NCBI GenBank assembly: GCA_021850095.1
Contig: JAJZRX010000025.1
Location: 1-38,343, forward strand
Length of the DNA: 38,343 bases
Source of the DNA: Deltaproteobacteria bacterium
Lineage (GTDB): Bacteria > Desulfobacterota > Desulfuromonadia > Geobacterales > Pseudopelobacteraceae
Reading direction: 5' to 3'
Numbering within the stretch: position 1 is the stretch's first letter; each line of letters begins with the position of its first letter. A program made the position numbers and the translations under genes. The notes under the pieces were generated by a model. It was not told the DNA's origin. It did no database searches and saw only the letters and a program-made list of their open reading frames with translations. Positions 6,076 to 33,590 of the stretch are shown piece by piece.

Positions 6076-9060
6076 ATGTCAAACATTCATACAGAAAAAA
6101 CCTTTGAAACCGCCATTATCGAATGCCTGGTTGATCAGGGTGGCTATATCCAGGGTAATGCCGATGATTACAGCGTTGAACTGGGGATGTTCAAGACCGA
6201 GGTAATCAGTTTCATCCAGGAAACCCAGCCCGAAAAATGGAGCAAACTTGAAACCATACATGGCGCCGACTGCCCCAACCGGATAATTCAGAGGCTGTAT
6301 AAGGAATTGGATCTGCGCGGTTCGCTGGACGTGCTGCGCAATGGTTTTGTTGATTATGGTATCCGGTTTCAAATGGCCTTTTTCAAGCCGGAATCCGGCT
6401 TAAACCCCGATACGCTGGCGCTGTATGAAAAGAACCGGCTGAAAGTTGTGCGTCAACTCTACTACAGCGCCAAAAACAAGAACTCGGTTGATCTGGTGCT
6501 TTCTCTTAATGGCCTGCCCGTTGCCACGCTGGAGCTGAAGAACCATTTTACCGGCCAGACGGCATCCAATGCCAGACGCCAGTACGCCCAGGATCGGGAC
6601 AACCGGGAGCTTTTGTTTGCCTTTAAGAAACGCGCCCTCGTCCATTTTGCCGTTGATCCCGACGAAGTGTATATGACAACCAGAGTGAACGGCAACAGGA
6701 CGTACTGGCTTCCGTTCAACAAGGGTTGCGACAACGGGAAGGGAAACCCGTCCAACCCTGCCGGTTACAAGACATCCTACCTGTGGGAAAGCGTGCTGAC
6801 CAAGGATAGCTGGCTAGATATCATCCACCGCTTTATTCACCTGCAAACCGAGGAATACGAGTTTGACGGCGTTATGAAGAAGAGCGAAAAACTAATCTTC
6901 CCCCGCTATCATCAGTTGGATTCTGTTCGCAAACTGACTACTGATGCGAAAGCAAGTGGTGCGGGCAAAAACTACCTGATTCAGCACTCCGCCGGTTCGG
7001 GCAAGAGCAATTCCATCGCCTGGCTGGCCTACCGGCTTTCCAGTCTGCATAATGAGCGGGATGAACGTATATTTGATAGTGTTATTGTTGTGACCGACAG
7101 AAAAGTGCTTGATAACCAGCTCCAGAACACCATCTATCAATTTGAGCATAAAACCGGTGTGGTTCAGAAGGTGGACAAAGACAGTTCCCAACTGGCCAGC
7201 GCCATCAGCTACGGCACGCATATTATCATCACCACTTTGCAGAAGTTCCCGTTTGTGATCGATAAGATTGGCGATCTGCCAGACCGCAGATATGCCGTTA
7301 TCATTGACGAAGCCCACAGTTCACAGGGGGGTGAGGCAAGCAAGAAGCTGAAAGAGGTGCTCTCTGCCAAGTCTCTTGAAACAGCTGTTGAGGACGACTT
7401 CACTGATTTTGATGATGAGGATGAAATCAACGCCGAGGTTGAAAAGTCGTGCGCGGCCAGAGGGAGGCAGCAGAACATCTCGTTCTTTGCTTTTACCGCC
7501 ACTCCCAAGTACAAGACCCTTGCCGTGTTTGGCTCCTTGAACGATGAAGGCAAGCCGCAACCGTTCCATCTGTATTCCATGCGTCAGGCCATTGAAGAAG
7601 GATTCATACTTGATGTGCTGGAAAACTACACAACCTATGAACTGTACTTCAAGTTGACCAAGGCTATCGAGGAAGACCCGCTGCTCAACAAAAAGAAGGC
7701 AGCACAGGCGATAGGCAAATATGTGTCACTGCATCCGCATAACCTTGCGCAAAAGACCGAAATCATCATTGAACATTTCCGGCAGATTGTTGCCAAAAAG
7801 ATCGGCGGCAGGGCCAAAGCTATGTTGGTGACCGGTTCGAGACTACATGCTAAGAGGTATTTTGACGAGTTCAAGCGATACATCAAGGCCAAGGAATATA
7901 CCGACATCAAGGTGTTGGTGGCTTTTTCAGGTAAAGTTATTGATGATGATTTTCCGGATGGCGTTTCCGAACCATCGTTGACGGGATATGGTGAAAGGGA
8001 ACTGCCGGAGGTATTCGATACGGAAGAGTACAAGATTCTGATAGTTGCGGATAAGTACCAGACCGGTTTTGATCAGCCCTTGCTGCATACGATGTATGTG
8101 GATAAAAAACTTTCCGGAGTTAAGGCCGTACAGACACTGTCCCGCCTGAATCGCACCTGTCCGGGCAAGGATGATACGTTTGTTTTGGATTTTGTGAATG
8201 ACCGGGAGACGATCCTTTCATCGTTCCAGCCCTATTACGAAATCACAACCGTGGTATCCGAGCCGGACCCGAACCACCTGTATGATCTGAAAGCGAAGCT
8301 GGACGAAAAGCAGATTTACTGGCAGTCGGAAATCGAGGCATTCTCCAGGGTCTATTTCAAGGACAGCCGGAGATTGACGGTTAAAGACCAGGCAGCGTTA
8401 TACGCCTGGATTGACCCAGCTGTTGACCGGTTCAAGGATATTGAGAAAAAGGAGGAAAAAGACGAGTTCAAAAAAAGTCTGCGTACCTGGACGAATCTTT
8501 ATTCTTTCCTGGCCCAGATCATGCCGTTTACCGAGCCTGACTTTGAAAAGTTTTATGCGTTTGCAAAATTACTGCAAACCAAGCTTCCGAAAATGGATTT
8601 ATCGGAGGCGCTGCAGCTTGATGACGAAGTCGCTTTGGAGTATTACCGTCTTCAGAAAATTGCTGACGGCAGCATTGAACTACAGAAAAATGAAATCGGC
8701 GAGCTTGACGGTCTGACGGAAGCAGGCATTAAACGGGCAAATGAAGAAAATGCCGTCTTGTCTGAAATCATCGAGTTATTGAATGAGCGGTTCGGCACCA
8801 GTTTTGAGCAGGCCGACAAACTTTTCTTTGACCAGATTGAGGCTGAGCTTGTCCAGGATGAAACGTTGAGAACACAGGCACAGGCCAATAAGATTGACAC
8901 CTTCAAGTATGCATTTGAAGACCAGTTTTTAAGCAAACTGATCGAACGAATGGATCAGAATCAGGAGATTTTTGAAAAGATCGTGGAGGACAAAACCTTT
9001 GGCGGTCTGGTCAGGGAATGGATGATGAAGAAGGTGTATGCGAGATTGCAGGAGAAATAA
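6076..9060 (+). CDS. hsdR: Type I restriction-modification system endonuclease/translocase subunit
   Basis: The motor and cleavage subunit, 994 residues. The N-terminal nuclease domain shows the PD-(D/E)XK pattern with D139 and E153-L-K155. The superfamily 2 helicase core follows: Walker A SAGSGKS (305-311), DEAH (411-414), TAT (474-476) and a RecA-like second half with QTGFDQP and QTLSRLNRT. The C-terminal helical region binds the methyltransferase complex in known homologues. The length is usual for the family and no frame break is seen, so the system looks intact. The start has a GAGGGA ribosome site. It begins 62 bp after the DUF1016 gene and ends 40 bp before the right flanking repeat. 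Confidence 0.95.
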   Translation: MSNIHTEKTFETAIIECLVDQGGYIQGNADDYSVELGMFKTEVISFIQETQPEKWSKLETIHGADCPNRIIQRLYKELDLRGSLDVLRNGFVDYGIRFQMAFFKPESGLNPDTLALYEKNRLKVVRQLYYSAKNKNSVDLVLSLNGLPVATLELKNHFTGQTASNARRQYAQDRDNRELLFAFKKRALVHFAVDPDEVYMTTRVNGNRTYWLPFNKGCDNGKGNPSNPAGYKTSYLWESVLTKDSWLDIIHRFIHLQTEEYEFDGVMKKSEKLIFPRYHQLDSVRKLTTDAKASGAGKNYLIQHSAGSGKSNSIAWLAYRLSSLHNERDERIFDSVIVVTDRKVLDNQLQNTIYQFEHKTGVVQKVDKDSSQLASAISYGTHIIITTLQKFPFVIDKIGDLPDRRYAVIIDEAHSSQGGEASKKLKEVLSAKSLETAVEDDFTDFDDEDEINAEVEKSCAARGRQQNISFFAFTATPKYKTLAVFGSLNDEGKPQPFHLYSMRQAIEEGFILDVLENYTTYELYFKLTKAIEEDPLLNKKKAAQAIGKYVSLHPHNLAQKTEIIIEHFRQIVAKKIGGRAKAMLVTGSRLHAKRYFDEFKRYIKAKEYTDIKVLVAFSGKVIDDDFPDGVSEPSLTGYGERELPEVFDTEEYKILIVADKYQTGFDQPLLHTMYVDKKLSGVKAVQTLSRLNRTCPGKDDTFVLDFVNDRETILSSFQPYYEITTVVSEPDPNHLYDLKAKLDEKQIYWQSEIEAFSRVYFKDSRRLTVKDQAALYAWIDPAVDRFKDIEKKEEKDEFKKSLRTWTNLYSFLAQIMPFTEPDFEKFYAFAKLLQTKLPKMDLSEALQLDDEVALEYYRLQKIADGSIELQKNEIGELDGLTEAGIKRANEENAVLSEIIELLNERFGTSFEQADKLFFDQIEAELVQDETLRTQAQANKIDTFKYAFEDQFLSKLIERMDQNQEIFEKIVEDKTFGGLVREWMMKKVYARLQEK

Positions 9061-9100
9061 CAAATACCCGTAGTTATCTACGATTGGAGCCTTCATCTGC

Positions 9101-9227
9101 GTTATTCCAATTCCAGATCAAAGCGCTATCTGCGTTGGCTCGTCTTCGGTACCTCAACGTACTGAAAGTACGCCTTGGCACCTCAATCCTTGCCGCCTTG
9201 ATATCATCTTTGATTTGGAATCGGTAT
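9101..9227 (-). repeat. Right copy of 127-bp palindromic inverted repeat flanking the restriction cassette
   Basis: The reverse complement matches 1628-1754 without gaps over 127 positions with 9 differences by my count. It sits between the hsdR stop (9060) and the draG stop (9234), leaving only 6 bp to the latter. Its fold-back structure could also act as a transcription barrier between the converging hsdR and draG, but no classic U-tract is seen. Confidence 0.9.
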
Positions 9228-28404: not shown

Positions 28405-29505
28405 ATGAAGCTTTTTTCTCCTTGCCAACTGGCCGGCACCAGGCTTGCCAATCGTATCGTCATGGCCCCCATGACCCGCTCCCGCGCCACCGGGAATATT
28501 CCCAACCGCTTAATGGCAGAGTATTACGGTCAGCGGGCATCGGCCGGCCTGATTATCACCGAGGGAACGTCACCGTCTCCCCATGGCCTCGGTTATGCCC
28601 GGATTCCCGGAATCTTTTCACCAGAGCAGATTGACGGCTGGCAGACGGTCACGGGAGCGGTGCATGGCCGGGAAGGAAAGATATTCCTGCAGATGATGCA
28701 TACCGGCAGGGTTGGCAACAGCTATAATCTTCCACCAGGCGCAACACTTCTGGGGCCGTCTGCGCTAGGGATGAAGGGAGTAATCTGGACCGACCAGGGG
28801 GGCGAGCAGCCGTACGACCTGCCCCGCGAGATGTCACTTACTGAAGTCCGTGTTGCCGTGTCGGAATACGGCAGAGGGGCTTCCAATGCCGTTGATGCGG
28901 GATTCGATGGCGTTGAAATCCATGGAGCAAACGGCTATCTGATTACCCAGTTCCTCGATCCGGGGTCCAACCAGCGTGATGACGCCTACGGAGGGGATGC
29001 GGAACGCCGCAACCGCTTTGCCCTGGATGTGGCACAGGCGGTCGTCACTGCCATCGGCGCCGAGCGGGTCGGCATCCGGCTTTCCCCCTATGGAGTGTTC
29101 AACGACATGAGCGGTGATTACCAGGGGATTGCGGAACAGTACATCGCCCTGGCGGGAGCATTGGGAACGCTGAAACTGGCATACCTGCACATGGTTGATC
29201 ACTCTGCCATGGGAGCGCCCAGACCGGACCCGGCCACTGTCCGGGCGATGTGTGCAGCGTTCCGGGCAGCCGGCGGGCAGGGGATCATCCTCTCTGGCGG
29301 TTATGACCGTGAGCGGGCCGAGTCTGACCTGGAGAACGGTGCCGCCGACCTGGTGGCCTTCGGACGTCCGTTCATTTCCAACCCTGACCTGGTGGATCGC
29401 CTGTCCGCAGGCGTGCCGCTGGCAGAGCCCGACCAGGCGACCTTCTACACCCCCGGCCCGGAAGGGTACACGGATTATCCCGCTTTCAAGGATGGAAAGG
29501 CTTGA
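28405..29505 (+). CDS. Old Yellow Enzyme family alkene reductase
   Basis: The 366-residue flavoenzyme (FMN TIM barrel) reduces activated C=C bonds with NAD(P)H. The active site is visible: H173 and N176 in EIHGANGYLITQF, proton donor Y178, FMN contacts MAPMTRSR near the N-terminus and Q97, then the family signature NQRDDAYGG and FGRPFISNPDL near the end. Substrates may be electrophilic enals, including those from lipid peroxidation. AGGAGG precedes the start. It is on the same strand as the methyltransferase, with 65 bp between them. Confidence 0.92.
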   Translation: MKLFSPCQLAGTRLANRIVMAPMTRSRATGNIPNRLMAEYYGQRASAGLIITEGTSPSPHGLGYARIPGIFSPEQIDGWQTVTGAVHGREGKIFLQMMHTGRVGNSYNLPPGATLLGPSALGMKGVIWTDQGGEQPYDLPREMSLTEVRVAVSEYGRGASNAVDAGFDGVEIHGANGYLITQFLDPGSNQRDDAYGGDAERRNRFALDVAQAVVTAIGAERVGIRLSPYGVFNDMSGDYQGIAEQYIALAGALGTLKLAYLHMVDHSAMGAPRPDPATVRAMCAAFRAAGGQGIILSGGYDRERAESDLENGAADLVAFGRPFISNPDLVDRLSAGVPLAEPDQATFYTPGPEGYTDYPAFKDGKA

Positions 29506-29625
29506 AGCGCTGGTACCCATCTACTTGACAGGGACTGAAGGCGTACTTATTTGCGGAACTGCTGGAGCGTATTGACGACCTGGAACGGAGACTTTGAGTA
29601 AAGGCGGAAAGCGGGAGAACCTGAC

Positions 29626-30069
29626 ATGGCTACGACAAACTACATGCTCTACTGCCCGTCCTGCGGCACCGGCAACCGTATCCCGGCAGACAAAGAGGGA
29701 CTGGCCGGGCGCTGCGGCAAATGCAGGTCAGCCTTGCCGCCCCTGTACTGCCATCCCCGACAGGTGAACGAGCGGAGCTTTGATGCATTCATCAGCTCCT
29801 ATCCCGGTCCGGTGCTGGCAGAGTTCTGGGCCCCGACCTGACCGCACTGCCATACCTTCGCACCGGTGGTGCGAACCGTTGCTGAAAAACTGGCCGGCCA
29901 GGCGGCGGTAGTCCAGATCAACACCCAGGAGAACCCTGACTTGGCGGCGCGCTTCGGTATTCGCGGCATCCCGGCCATTGTGCTGCTGAAGCAGGGGCGC
30001 GTTATCGATCAACTGCCGGGAGCGCAAGCGCTTGATGCGGTGCTGACATGGTTCCGCAGGAAGGTATGA
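29626..30069 (+). CDS. trxC: Thioredoxin-2 (TrxC-like) with in-frame TGA, probable selenoprotein
   Basis: Read through the TGA at 29839-29841, one frame encodes 147 residues. An N-terminal zinc ribbon (C10, C13, C30, C33) is followed by a thioredoxin fold. The active-site segment reads WAPT-(TGA)-PHC, so the TGA replaces the first catalytic cysteine of C-x-x-C (position 72, with C75 second). The fold continues in the same frame: VVQINTQENPDLAARFGI, the cis-proline segment RGIPAIVLL, then the stop TGA at 30069. A hairpin suited to a bacterial SECIS lies just downstream of the codon. UxxC thioredoxins are known among selenoproteins. Automatic annotation would cut it at 71 aa or call it a pseudogene. 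A simple nonsense mutation is the alternative. Confidence 0.85.
29857..29875 (+). promoter_or_regulatory. Candidate bacterial SECIS hairpin in trxC
   Basis: TTCGCACC (29857-29864) and GGTGCGAA (29868-29875) form a perfect 8-bp stem capped by GGT, starting 15 nt after the in-frame TGA. Bacterial SECIS elements lie immediately downstream of the UGA and need G/U in the apical loop, with the loop roughly 16-37 nt after the codon; both hold here (loop about 23 nt away). SelB binding is inferred. Confidence 0.65.
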
Positions 30070-30151
30070 TAAACCCGGATATTCTCATCTTCATCCGACA
30101 ACGCCAGAAATCCTTGCCAGTCACGTGCGATGTCACGATATCTGCTCACCG

Positions 30152-31435
30152 TCACTTGGAATCAGGCCGTTTCAGATCGAACTCGATTTCGAACTCCGTC
30201 ACTTCCTCGTTCTCTTTATTGCTTATCACCAGCACCTGCTTGTCCTTCAGCCTCTTATCCCGCACCGTGCCGGTGAAAGGGCCGAACTGCCGCTCCAGCG
30301 GAATAGTCAGCGGCTGCTTCCCGGTTTTCGGCTTCTTGTCAAGATTGTCGCACGCACCCACGGCGGTGGTAGTTTTTGTGACGTATTCCGTTCCTTCTCT
30401 TGAAACTGCGCGTACGGACACTTTGTAGGTGCCGTTTTTCGAGAAGTGCAGCCTGATGGTGGCGTCCTTGTTGTCCGATGTGCCGGTTTTCATCGACCAG
30501 GTGCTGGTGTCGAGACCGCTTACCGAACCGGCCGACTCCGTCTCGTCCCTGAAAGACCACTCCCCCTTTCGACCTGATGCACATTCGTGGCAGCCGGTAA
30601 TCTCTTCGCGGACGATCTTCTCGGTTATGTTCCCTTCCATTGTGCCATCGGTATCAGGATTGCCGTTTCTTTGGAATTTCCAGACATGCTTGCCGTCGAC
30701 AGTTACGGTTTCCGTCTTCCGTCCCTGATGATCCTGCCCGTTGCAGTAATCAGTGAAGGTCTCTTCACGCTGCTCGTTCCGTTTTGTTTTAGCTCTCACC
30801 TCAACATTACCCTTGAACGGGCACACTTCGTTATTGAGCCCTTTGTCATTAGACCCTTCTTCAACAAACGCCTTGGCCAGTTCATCCGCAATCCGCTTTA
30901 TATCCGCTATCGCCGCGCCTGTCGTAGGGTATACCTTGTTTTCCTGATAGAAGAGACCCGACCTCTTTGTCCAGAACTTATTGACAGCATTGACTCTGAC
31001 GATCACCACCGGTTTCGCTGTGGTCATTATGGTAACGATATATTTCGCATCCCCCATCTTGTTGAACTCGTCCATCTTCTTACGGAGCGACGCCTGAAAC
31101 CGCTCTTCTTCTTCGGCTGTGGTGTACCTTTCTTGTGAATCGGCATCAGAAGCATTGGCGCCGGCAATCCATTCCCCGCCGCTAGGGCCCATGAACTCCT
31201 TCTGCTTCAAGGCATCCAGCGCTTTTTGGGTTTGGCTCTTCGTAAAAATCTTAAGGCAGGGAAAGTCCTTGAGAAGCGCGTCCTCGATGGCGACCGCCGC
31301 ATCCCTCATCAGGAGTTTGGCCTCCGGGGAATTTTCGCCCGTCGTTTCATGAATGTTCAGCACATCGTTTTGATAGGCTAATGCCTCCCCATGCCCCGCC
31401 ACAAACAACAAAAATATCAATACTAATGTTTTCAT
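30152..31435 (-). CDS. Exported protein of unknown function
   Basis: The 427-residue protein has a clear signal peptide (about 1-21, cleavage after GEALA). The N-terminal half (about 35-200) has the look of proteins with repeated nucleotide- or polymer-binding alpha/beta units (AAVAIEDALLK, DAKYIVTIMTTAKPVVIVRVNAV), loosely like CsgG/TolB-type domains; this is weak. The C-terminal half is rich in Ser, Thr and charged residues, is probably beta, and has a CHEC motif. It is the last gene of a four-gene operon, overlapping the LRR gene by 4 bp. It converges with trxC. Confidence 0.7.
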   Translation of the reverse strand: MKTLVLIFLLFVAGHGEALAYQNDVLNIHETTGENSPEAKLLMRDAAVAIEDALLKDFPCLKIFTKSQTQKALDALKQKEFMGPSGGEWIAGANASDADSQERYTTAEEEERFQASLRKKMDEFNKMGDAKYIVTIMTTAKPVVIVRVNAVNKFWTKRSGLFYQENKVYPTTGAAIADIKRIADELAKAFVEEGSNDKGLNNEVCPFKGNVEVRAKTKRNEQREETFTDYCNGQDHQGRKTETVTVDGKHVWKFQRNGNPDTDGTMEGNITEKIVREEITGCHECASGRKGEWSFRDETESAGSVSGLDTSTWSMKTGTSDNKDATIRLHFSKNGTYKVSVRAVSREGTEYVTKTTTAVGACDNLDKKPKTGKQPLTIPLERQFGPFTGTVRDKRLKDKQVLVISNKENEEVTEFEIEFDLKRPDSK

Positions 31436-32358
31436 TCGGTTACGATCCTGCAGTTCGGTAGCAGTTTGGCAATCTGCCGCAGTTCTGTCGCGCTGATTCC
31501 GGTTTTAATGACGCCTAATTCCTCCAGGAACAGAAGCTCCGTAACCGTCGGCAACAGAGTGGCGATTGGATTCATGTCCAGCTGAAGGCTTTGCAGCTGT
31601 TTCAACGATCCGACAGCCGCCGGAAGCTTTCCGATACTGTTGTTGAAGATTGAAAGCATCGTCAGGCCCTCGAAGGCGCCGATCGATTCAGGGATTGAGG
31701 TAAGAAATCCGCGAAAATTGAAGATGTACAGTTCGGTCAGCGGCAGATGCTTGGCCCTGTCCAGAATGAGGGGCAGATTAACCGGAGTGCCGTTGACTCC
31801 ACCGGTCAGGATCAGGGTGGTGATGCCGGTGAATTTATCCAGCAGGTCGATGAGGGTCTGCGCTTCATCCCGGGAAAGGTCGATGAACAGAACCTTTGCC
31901 TCCTGATAATAGGCGCTGTTCCTGACCGACTTGTCCCGATCCTCCTCGTACTCTTCCGTGACCCTCGTGCGAACCGGTCCCGCAAGGTCGAGCTTCGCCC
32001 CCTTCCCCTTGGCAGCCGCTTCCCCGACTGTTTCCCACATTGCCTCACGAGTCATCACCGCCTGGTCTTCTTCGCTGTCAGGCCGCTCCTCCCCACGGGC
32101 CCGGGACTCTGCCGCATCCCGCTGTGCCTGCAGTTTCTGCAGCTGCATCATCAACGCGTCAATGCGTGCCCGCACCCTTTTGTCATTGTCGGCCGTTTTT
32201 TTCCGCAGGGCGCGCAGTTCATTCCGAATGGCCAGCGGATCGGTGGGGAGCGGCGGCTCCGCCGCAACAGCCAGGAGCGGGAGCAGCAGGAACGTGAGCA
32301 CTGCAAGGAGGCGTCGTGCGCGCTGTGCGCTCAACCTGTGGCCGTATTTCCCGCTCAC
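31432..32358 (-). CDS. Exported leucine-rich repeat protein
   Basis: The 308-residue protein has an N-terminal hydrophobic segment (about 15-33, cleavable at AVA-A), a charged coiled-coil stretch (about 45-90) and a C-terminal leucine-rich repeat domain (about 165-305). Repeat units read, for example, LTMLSIFNNSIGKLPAAVGS and LQSLQLDMNPIATLLPTV. LRRs are protein-binding surfaces; the partner may be one of the co-encoded exported proteins. Neighbouring genes overlap by 4 bp on both sides. Confidence 0.78.
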   Translation of the reverse strand: MSGKYGHRLSAQRARRLLAVLTFLLLPLLAVAAEPPLPTDPLAIRNELRALRKKTADNDKRVRARIDALMMQLQKLQAQRDAAESRARGEERPDSEEDQAVMTREAMWETVGEAAAKGKGAKLDLAGPVRTRVTEEYEEDRDKSVRNSAYYQEAKVLFIDLSRDEAQTLIDLLDKFTGITTLILTGGVNGTPVNLPLILDRAKHLPLTELYIFNFRGFLTSIPESIGAFEGLTMLSIFNNSIGKLPAAVGSLKQLQSLQLDMNPIATLLPTVTELLFLEELGVIKTGISATELRQIAKLLPNCRIVTE

Positions 32359-33590
32359 TGCGCCTCACCCCCGGACCCTGGCTGCTCGCCGCCGCAGAAG
32401 CGGTCTTTGCAGCGGTCTTCTCCAGGATTGTATTGATAGGCACTTCCCAATACCCCGACATACCTCTGGATCGCTTCCAGGCCGGAGAGCCCGCTGCTCG
32501 CATCCGGGAGTCCGATCCCTGTCTGGGCCTTCTGCAACTCGCCGGTAATCCGGTCAAGCTCCTTGTAACGGCCCTGGGAAATCAACAGCGAAGACTGCCA
32601 GTCACGGAGGATATCAAGCAGCTTCGGCGCCATGTAATTGCAGTAGCTCATTCGCGCGGAGTGAATACTGCTGCACTGATCTTCCTTTGCCTGGCAAGAG
32701 GACTTGATTGGGGTCTCGTGCTGGGTTGTTTGCGGGAGCGCGTCCAGCTCCGCCGCCAGGTTCGTGCCTCCGAAGTCGGATTGATAGCCATCCTCTAGCT
32801 TCCCCTGTCTTTTGAGCACATCGATAATCTTGCTGTAGTCGACGTCTTTAGGGCGTTTGTAGGCAGAACCAAGCATTGCCGCCAGTGCATTCTCCTGATC
32901 GTATATCTGCTCACGCATGTTCTTCGCGTACGTATCCTTGTCCAATTCCTCAAATTGGCCGGCGGCTTTTGCTTCAACGGCACGATACAGCTTCTGCGAC
33001 AGTTCGGCCTGCTCTTTCGCAAGTTTCCCGGCATCGGCGATCTTCCGCTTATCGGCTTCACGCTCCCCTTTCGATTTCATCAGGTCGTTGACCTGCAGCT
33101 CGCCCGCCATGGTCTTGGCAAAATCAACATTGGCCATGGTTTTTCCTTCTTTGTTCGCCTTTTTCTGAGCCTTCAGGTCATCCATGGAAACGCCGAACTT
33201 CTCCTGCATCATCTGTTCAGCCATCTTCTTACGCTCGGCCTTGGACATCTTCTTCATTTCCGCCTGGCTCTTCCCCTCGAACCCCGGCATGTCGACCGCG
33301 TTTTCCATCATCTTTTTACTGTTCTGCTCATTCCACTTTTTAAGCGCCCGCCGCCGCTTGCCGACTTCATCCTTCAGTTCCTTCTGCGCTTTCAGGAATT
33401 TTTCACGAAACTGCTTGATGTCGTCATCCTTGCCCGGACAACCGTTTCTGGGCGGAGATGGGATCACGTTGAGAAAATAATCCGGAGACTTGCCAACCCA
33501 GGAACTCTGCCCTATGGCCCCGTCTCCGAGGTCGCTGCAATAGCCGGTTGTAGTCCAGACGAGGCTTATTGTAATTAATAATTTTTTCAT
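32355..33590 (-). CDS. Exported lysine-rich helical protein of unknown function
   Basis: The 411-residue protein has a signal peptide (about 1-18, TTGYCS). It has a long, highly charged, probably alpha-helical middle (about 40-230; many K, E and A with repeated KKM, AEQ and EAK patterns). The C-terminal part carries several cysteines (SSCQAKEDQCSSIH and DRCKDRFCGG). The basic tail could bind anionic polymers. No family is recognised. It is the second gene of the operon, 18 bp after the first gene and overlapping the LRR gene by 4 bp. Confidence 0.7.
   Translation of the reverse strand: MKKLLITISLVWTTTGYCSDLGDGAIGQSSWVGKSPDYFLNVIPSPPRNGCPGKDDDIKQFREKFLKAQKELKDEVGKRRRALKKWNEQNSKKMMENAVDMPGFEGKSQAEMKKMSKAERKKMAEQMMQEKFGVSMDDLKAQKKANKEGKTMANVDFAKTMAGELQVNDLMKSKGEREADKRKIADAGKLAKEQAELSQKLYRAVEAKAAGQFEELDKDTYAKNMREQIYDQENALAAMLGSAYKRPKDVDYSKIIDVLKRQGKLEDGYQSDFGGTNLAAELDALPQTTQHETPIKSSCQAKEDQCSSIHSARMSYCNYMAPKLLDILRDWQSSLLISQGRYKELDRITGELQKAQTGIGLPDASSGLSGLEAIQRYVGVLGSAYQYNPGEDRCKDRFCGGEQPGSGGEAQ

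Follow-up and report, generated by a model that had tools for sequence, protein, structure and literature searches.

Does an in-frame TGA in a thioredoxin gene end the protein, or is it read as selenocysteine (Sec)? The question is raised by a gene in a window of 38,343 nucleotides (the whole stretch of DNA that was analysed), contig C22 of an assembly that totals 3.4 Mb in 118 contigs and is 90% complete. The named records closest to this gene point to a Geobacter relative as its source. An annotation that takes every TGA as a stop would yield a 71-residue fragment or a pseudogene; the sequence-only reading of this locus had warned of such a truncation, and plain translation does end at the TGA after 71 residues.

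Reading frame and homologues

Translated as a whole, the frame runs through 71 residues to WAPT, continues beyond the TGA with PHC...RRKV and closes at a second stop (Table 1). The read-through protein matches the family Zn_ribbon_Thio2 (PF21352) with 33.5 bits against a cut-off of 27.1 and belongs to the family Thioredoxin (PF00085) with 82.8 bits against a cut-off of 23.5 (2e-23). Translation and Pfam bear out the order of parts read from the letters alone, i.e., a zinc ribbon, WAPT-TGA-PHC and an uninterrupted thioredoxin fold up to the second stop. The locus is a zinc-ribbon thioredoxin gene in which TGA stands exactly at the first catalytic cysteine, as had been claimed. In a 14-row alignment, the zinc-ribbon cysteines C10, C13, C30 and C33 are invariant, and so are C75, P116, G132 and W142 downstream of the TGA. 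The predicted structure of the read-through protein has a model pLDDT of 91.5, and its residues 42-147 match thioredoxins structurally. The earlier name, thioredoxin-2, is a fair nickname, but the score against the TrxC equivalog of NCBIfam (NF008229) was 105.4 bits with a cut-off of 125. The protein is therefore named TrxC-like rather than TrxC.

Table 1. Features of the predicted Sec-thioredoxin locus, in positions of the window.
Feature	Position	Strand	Basis
Shine-Dalgarno-like GGGAG, ATG 8 nt further on	29613..29617	+	sequence reading
Predicted Sec-thioredoxin gene, 147 residues and TGA stop (30067-30069)	29626..30069	+	translation, Pfam, homologues, structure model
N-terminal zinc ribbon CPSC...CGKC, residues 10-34	29653..29727	+	PF21352; invariant cysteines
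Thioredoxin domain, residues 46-142	29761..30051	+	PF00085; structural matches
TGA, almost certainly read as selenocysteine, residue 72, probable attacking residue of UPHC	29839..29841	+	TGA/Cys pairing in homologues
Probable resolving cysteine, residue 75	29848..29850	+	conservation
Predicted bacterial SECIS hairpin, 8 bp, GGU loop (29865-29867), UGA-to-loop spacing 23 nt	29857..29875	+	published limits, conservation

To collect homologues, the protein of the window was run by tblastn against every fetched locus; with an E limit of 1e-20 and only the best row of each locus kept, 129 rows were obtained. Two loci of the thioredoxin-1 type (L045 and L046) were dropped by a 45% identity limit, and the remaining 127, in which many places occur twice (as a genome and as a named record), reduce to 89 distinct stretches of 183 nt, the window included. 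Counts over these 89 are counts of related sequences and not of independent events. The focal codon is TGA in 77 of them, TGC in eight and TGT in four. The alignment that had been proposed as a check thus pairs TGA with a Cys codon (12 sequences) and with no third kind. The tail behind the Sec or Cys is common to both forms, being PHC in 88 of the 89 and THC in one, and the printed motif of all 89 has the resolving cysteine.

Among 39 genomes (that of the window and its relatives), a close homologue (E < 1e-50) is present in 23, in 16 with the TGA and in seven without it; in named genomes, 22 loci came up. When 277 genomes of the class were searched with a profile (E up to 1e-40), 87 of them yielded 92 matches. 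Of these matches, 80 hold a TGA, one of the 80 having another TGA and a TAA in addition, and the remaining 12 have no stop. Five of the 87 matched genomes (G030, G036, G176, G188 and G243) carry two TGA copies each. L063, a 3.5-kb contig whose title names the planctomycete Phycisphaera mikurensis, has a 77% identical gene that is nested among Geobacter relatives; this contig is probably misbinned.

A sequencing or assembly error for TGC or TGT could be imagined in so fragmented an assembly, the more so as genuine Cys homologues exist, and it had been named in advance as an outcome that would undo the case; this least credible of the explanations is excluded in effect because the TGA recurs in 77 of the 89 distinct sequences, from metagenome assemblies as well as independent isolates such as Geomobilimonas luticola (L054), Geomesophilobacter sediminis (L065) and Geobacter sp. 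OR-1 (L067).

The hairpin behind the UGA

An 8-bp hairpin with a GGT cap, said to begin 15 nt past the TGA, was found in that place (TTCGCACC-GGT-GGTGCGAA). For bacterial SECIS elements, the legend of Fig. 2 in PMC13188914 gives a loop of 3-9 nt, a stem of 4-16 bp, a spacing of 16-37 nt, a G within loop positions 1-2 and an energy of at most -7.5 kcal/mol. With its 3-nt loop starting with G, its spacing of 23 nt and its energy of -10.8 kcal/mol, the window hairpin lies inside all of these limits. When the amino acids FAPVVRT were held fixed and codons were drawn from seven neighbouring ORFs and the remainder of the Sec-thioredoxin gene, an 8-bp stem with an apical G arose in 1.1% of 100,000 random draws. 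At minimum energy, the 62 nt from the TGA onward favour a competing helix, and the stability of this fold is no better than that of shuffles (z = -0.44); the energy of the window sequence alone would therefore not have proved the hairpin. An Rfam scan of positions 29500-30100 returned three miRNA/IRES matches only (E 4-7), which were taken as chance. Nine TGA read-through frames with a SECIS-like hairpin came up as candidates in the window, that of the thioredoxin among them, and the other eight look, by eye, out-of-frame or antisense.

The homologues retain the hairpin, which together with the codon draws upholds the earlier view that it is unlikely to be accidental. The SECIS limits are passed by 76 of the 77 TGA sequences, each with a spacing of 23 nt and a 3-nt loop, the single failure being L118 at -7.4, and by two of the 12 Cys sequences, both of which are placed among Sec relatives in the tree. 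Of 6,793 control codons taken from elsewhere in these TGA genes, 568 pass, most commonly those that lie 9-12 codons downstream (26-31 sequences each). Across the 77 TGA sequences, the stem has 8 bp in 70, seven in six and six in one; the first loop position is always G, and the loops are GGC (39), GGU (33), GUC (4) and GGG (1). Two-sided compensatory changes were seen in pair 1 (U-A to C-G, three sequences), pair 2 (U-A to A-U, one sequence) and pair 3 (C-G to U-A, four sequences), and a shift of the 3' arm by 1-3 nt lowers the pairing from 98.6% to 34.6-61.7%. This shift and the two tests that follow were confined to sequences whose stretch is complete, 74 with TGA and 12 with Cys. When 6- or 8-bp hairpins were placed in 4,770 ways along the 74 full-length TGA genes, no 8-bp placement did better than the SECIS site (67 of 74 genes); the runner-up reaches 13 of 74, and the top 6-bp placement elsewhere reaches 26. 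The codons in the hairpin are nearly frozen, with a mean top-codon share of 0.92 over five near-invariant columns versus 0.60 over 54 conserved columns elsewhere.

A nonsense mutation, which would leave a pseudogene or the 71-residue fragment as the sole product, fits the default translation that ends at the TGA, but it is hardly believable given a TGA at the same codon in most of the distinct sequences and the conservation of both the hairpin and the residues past the TGA. Decay elsewhere in the gene, which had been named as a sign against a selenoprotein, was seen in one of the 89 distinct sequences: the aligned stretch of L056/L091 contains two more stops, and L056 has a low coverage of 2.3. 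A pseudogene, a sequencing error and an ordinary stop are effectively excluded as explanations of the locus.

Selenocysteine machinery and the Cys forms

The sequence-only reading had staked its case on the presence of selA, selB, selC and selD, and the window's genome has all four above the family cut-offs. The scores are 611 bits for selA (cut-off 268), 362 bits for selB when the neighbouring stretch in frame is included (cut-off 242), 77.5 bits for tRNA-Sec (selC; cut-off 47), with the anticodon UCA according to ARAGORN, and 362 bits for selD (cut-off 125). The selD gene (L010:1411-2343, minus strand) has an in-frame TGA of its own, in MIKLTQLVKAAG-U-AAKLGPGGL, followed by a hairpin with a CGGGU loop, so that selD is probably a second selenoprotein of this genome.

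If the UGA were read as some other amino acid, by a reassigned code or by near-cognate read-through, the frame would likewise be maintained. This is very improbable, however, as TGA still serves as an ordinary stop in the adjacent upstream gene (29503-29505) and at the end of the Sec-thioredoxin gene itself, relatives replace the focal TGA by Cys codons only, and there is a hairpin of the SECIS type as well as a complete sel set. From its sequence context, the UGA at codon 72 is almost certainly decoded as Sec.

The presence of selA is a weak correlate of the TGA: it was found in 14 of the 16 TGA genomes, five of the seven Cys genomes and 11 of the 16 genomes without a close homologue. Since five of the seven Cys genomes retain selA, the switch to Cys needs no loss of the machinery. 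One genome with a Sec gene and an intact hairpin does not fit (G023, loci L024/L058, 96% complete): in it, selA, selB and tRNA-Sec were not found, 150 of 332 tRNA candidates having been scored. Because only about 3 kb separate selA from selB in G019, a missing contig in G023 is possible; a real recent loss of the Sec machinery is also conceivable. Genome G254, whose thioredoxin is the Cys form, has two tRNA-Sec genes about 2.5 kb apart (G254:C43:6528-6621 and 9019-9112).

Trees of 35 and 93 rows were made with the focal residue masked, and in both of them three changes are required to explain the Cys label, two or more of which are forced by supported branches. L069 (whose stretch is identical to that of L029) and L121 are single Cys rows surrounded by Sec sequences, and both still have all of the hairpin; L029/L069 and L121 have probably switched from Sec to Cys recently and retain the SECIS as a relict. 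The alignment of L029 starts only at residue 23, and its zinc ribbon may be incomplete. The other ten Cys sequences form one group in the 93-row tree (SH-aLRT 94, not starred), while the 35-row tree places one Sec row, L072, among the grouped Cys rows with weak support. None of the ten passes the SECIS limits, but seven of the eight pairs are kept in L098, L102 and L105, and the apical G in L105 and L041. In G005 and G016, which belong to this group, selA, selB and tRNA-Sec were not found. Rooting with thioredoxin-1 puts Sec at the base with weak support. In the 93-row tree 18 of the 90 inner branches are starred, and with such poor resolution an ancestral Sec is likely rather than proven. The 77 Sec and 12 Cys sequences offer a clean natural series for gauging what benefit selenium brings to a thioredoxin, and the relict hairpins of the two probable recent converts a gauge of how fast a SECIS decays once it is unneeded.

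Function and comparison with known thioredoxins

With nearly the same assurance as the decoding itself, the gene can be taken to encode a cytoplasmic zinc-ribbon thioredoxin with Sec as its attacking residue, inserted in a SelB-dependent manner; by eye no signal peptide is seen, which is consistent with the presumed location. SelB with Sec-tRNA(UCA) would bind the hairpin just past the UGA, Sec would go in at codon 72, and the release factor would not act. By fold position and thioredoxin chemistry, Sec72 should be the exposed attacking position and Cys75 the resolving one. Sec72, as a selenolate, would attack substrate disulfides (or selenium/peroxide species), Cys75 would resolve the mixed selenosulfide, and a reductase, presumably thioredoxin reductase, would reset the protein. 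No thioredoxin reductase above the cut-off was found in the window's 90%-complete genome; 35 of the 39 genomes have one.

The neighbours do not tell the function, since among 193 flanking ORFs of 35 loci (with flanks of roughly 1.5-3 kb, or less) no cluster is common to more than five loci. Just 5' of the gene (29559-29597, plus strand), the window holds LLERIDDLERRL-stop, which is like the C-terminus of a protein, presumably CbpM-like, that lies 2.0-2.6 kb upstream of the TGA in L053, L056, L061, L062 and L065. It is as if an operon had been cut down at the window locus; most other loci have too little flank to compare. On the minus strand at 30152-33590, three ORFs of 427, 308 and 411 aa with successive 4-nt overlaps look like an operon, and for the 427-aa ORF Pfam gave no match (E up to 0.001).

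The protein is somewhat more readily seen as a disulfide reductase in the main than as an oxidant or isomerase. Its rival accepts Sec insertion but makes the UPHC protein an oxidant or isomerase, or a selenium-handling protein, and not a general reductase; the nearly constant PHC beside the Sec or Cys speaks for this possible but less favoured reading. Sec usually lowers the redox potential, which counts against an oxidant or isomerase, and neither a partner gene nor a shared neighbour cluster points that way. Placed in an archaeal thioredoxin, CPHC shifted the potential from -287 to -221 mV, i.e., by +66 mV in the oxidising direction, yet this mutant stays far from DsbA at -89 to -124 mV (PMC4395160). 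PHC is the DsbA dipeptide, but the archaeal thioredoxin with CPHC is not a DsbA, so that a reductase is the first guess and an isomerase, oxidant or selenium-handling protein is a live rival. A bolder proposal, which we put forward tentatively and consider doubtful, is that cytoplasmic selenothioredoxins which combine a zinc ribbon with a DsbA-type UPHC make up a separate family centred on Geobacter. Its members would not be housekeeping reductases but fast, relatively oxidising thiol-selenol isomerases, or would handle selenium, and Sec-to-Cys switches would be caught midway in L029/L069 and L121 (a Cys codon beside a complete, apparently useless hairpin).

Thioredoxins of the UxxC type were said at the outset to be known from selenoprotein surveys, and this is so. 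The tables of PMC1794560 list thioredoxin as a selenoprotein of G. metallireducens, G. sulfurreducens and G. uraniumreducens, a G. sulfurreducens candidate is named after a thiol-disulfide isomerase/thioredoxin homologue in PMC1242214, and a table of PMC1914089, the only paper found in the literature search for GSU3446, lists this Geobacter sulfurreducens gene with TGA. In two reviews (PMC9312934 and PMC13188914), Trx with UxxC is listed above the heading 'predicted', and the first of them cites Kim 2015 for the family. Excerpts of the literature searched held no mention of the zinc ribbon, the UPHC motif or the relict hairpins of the Sec-thioredoxin family, and a search for thioredoxin 2 with selenium, zinc or Geobacter gave nothing relevant among the matches listed. 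The Kim 2015 study reportedly concerns a Treponema denticola protein. Since thioredoxin selenoproteins of Geobacter were already in the surveys of 2006-2007, the find is less novel than first judged.

Like the UxxC Trx selenoproteins, the window protein has its predicted Sec first in the redox motif of a PF00085 domain; unlike GSU3446, the gene comes from another genome, and it is likened to these proteins by their published listing, in the available parts of which a zinc ribbon and UPHC are unstated. The window hairpin resembles bacterial SECIS elements in its G-first 3-nt loop, 8-bp stem, spacing and energy, as judged here from sequence. With the Cys-containing TrxC (thioredoxin 2), the protein shares a zinc ribbon and a thioredoxin domain, and the solved Trx2-type chains 7d6l_A, 3p2a_A and 2ppt_A match it across both parts. 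It differs from TrxC in having Sec for Cys and PHC for the usual GPC, and in its score below the NCBIfam cut-off. That Geobacter has a thioredoxin selenoprotein is old knowledge, to which the window gene adds a member with unusually clear comparative evidence.
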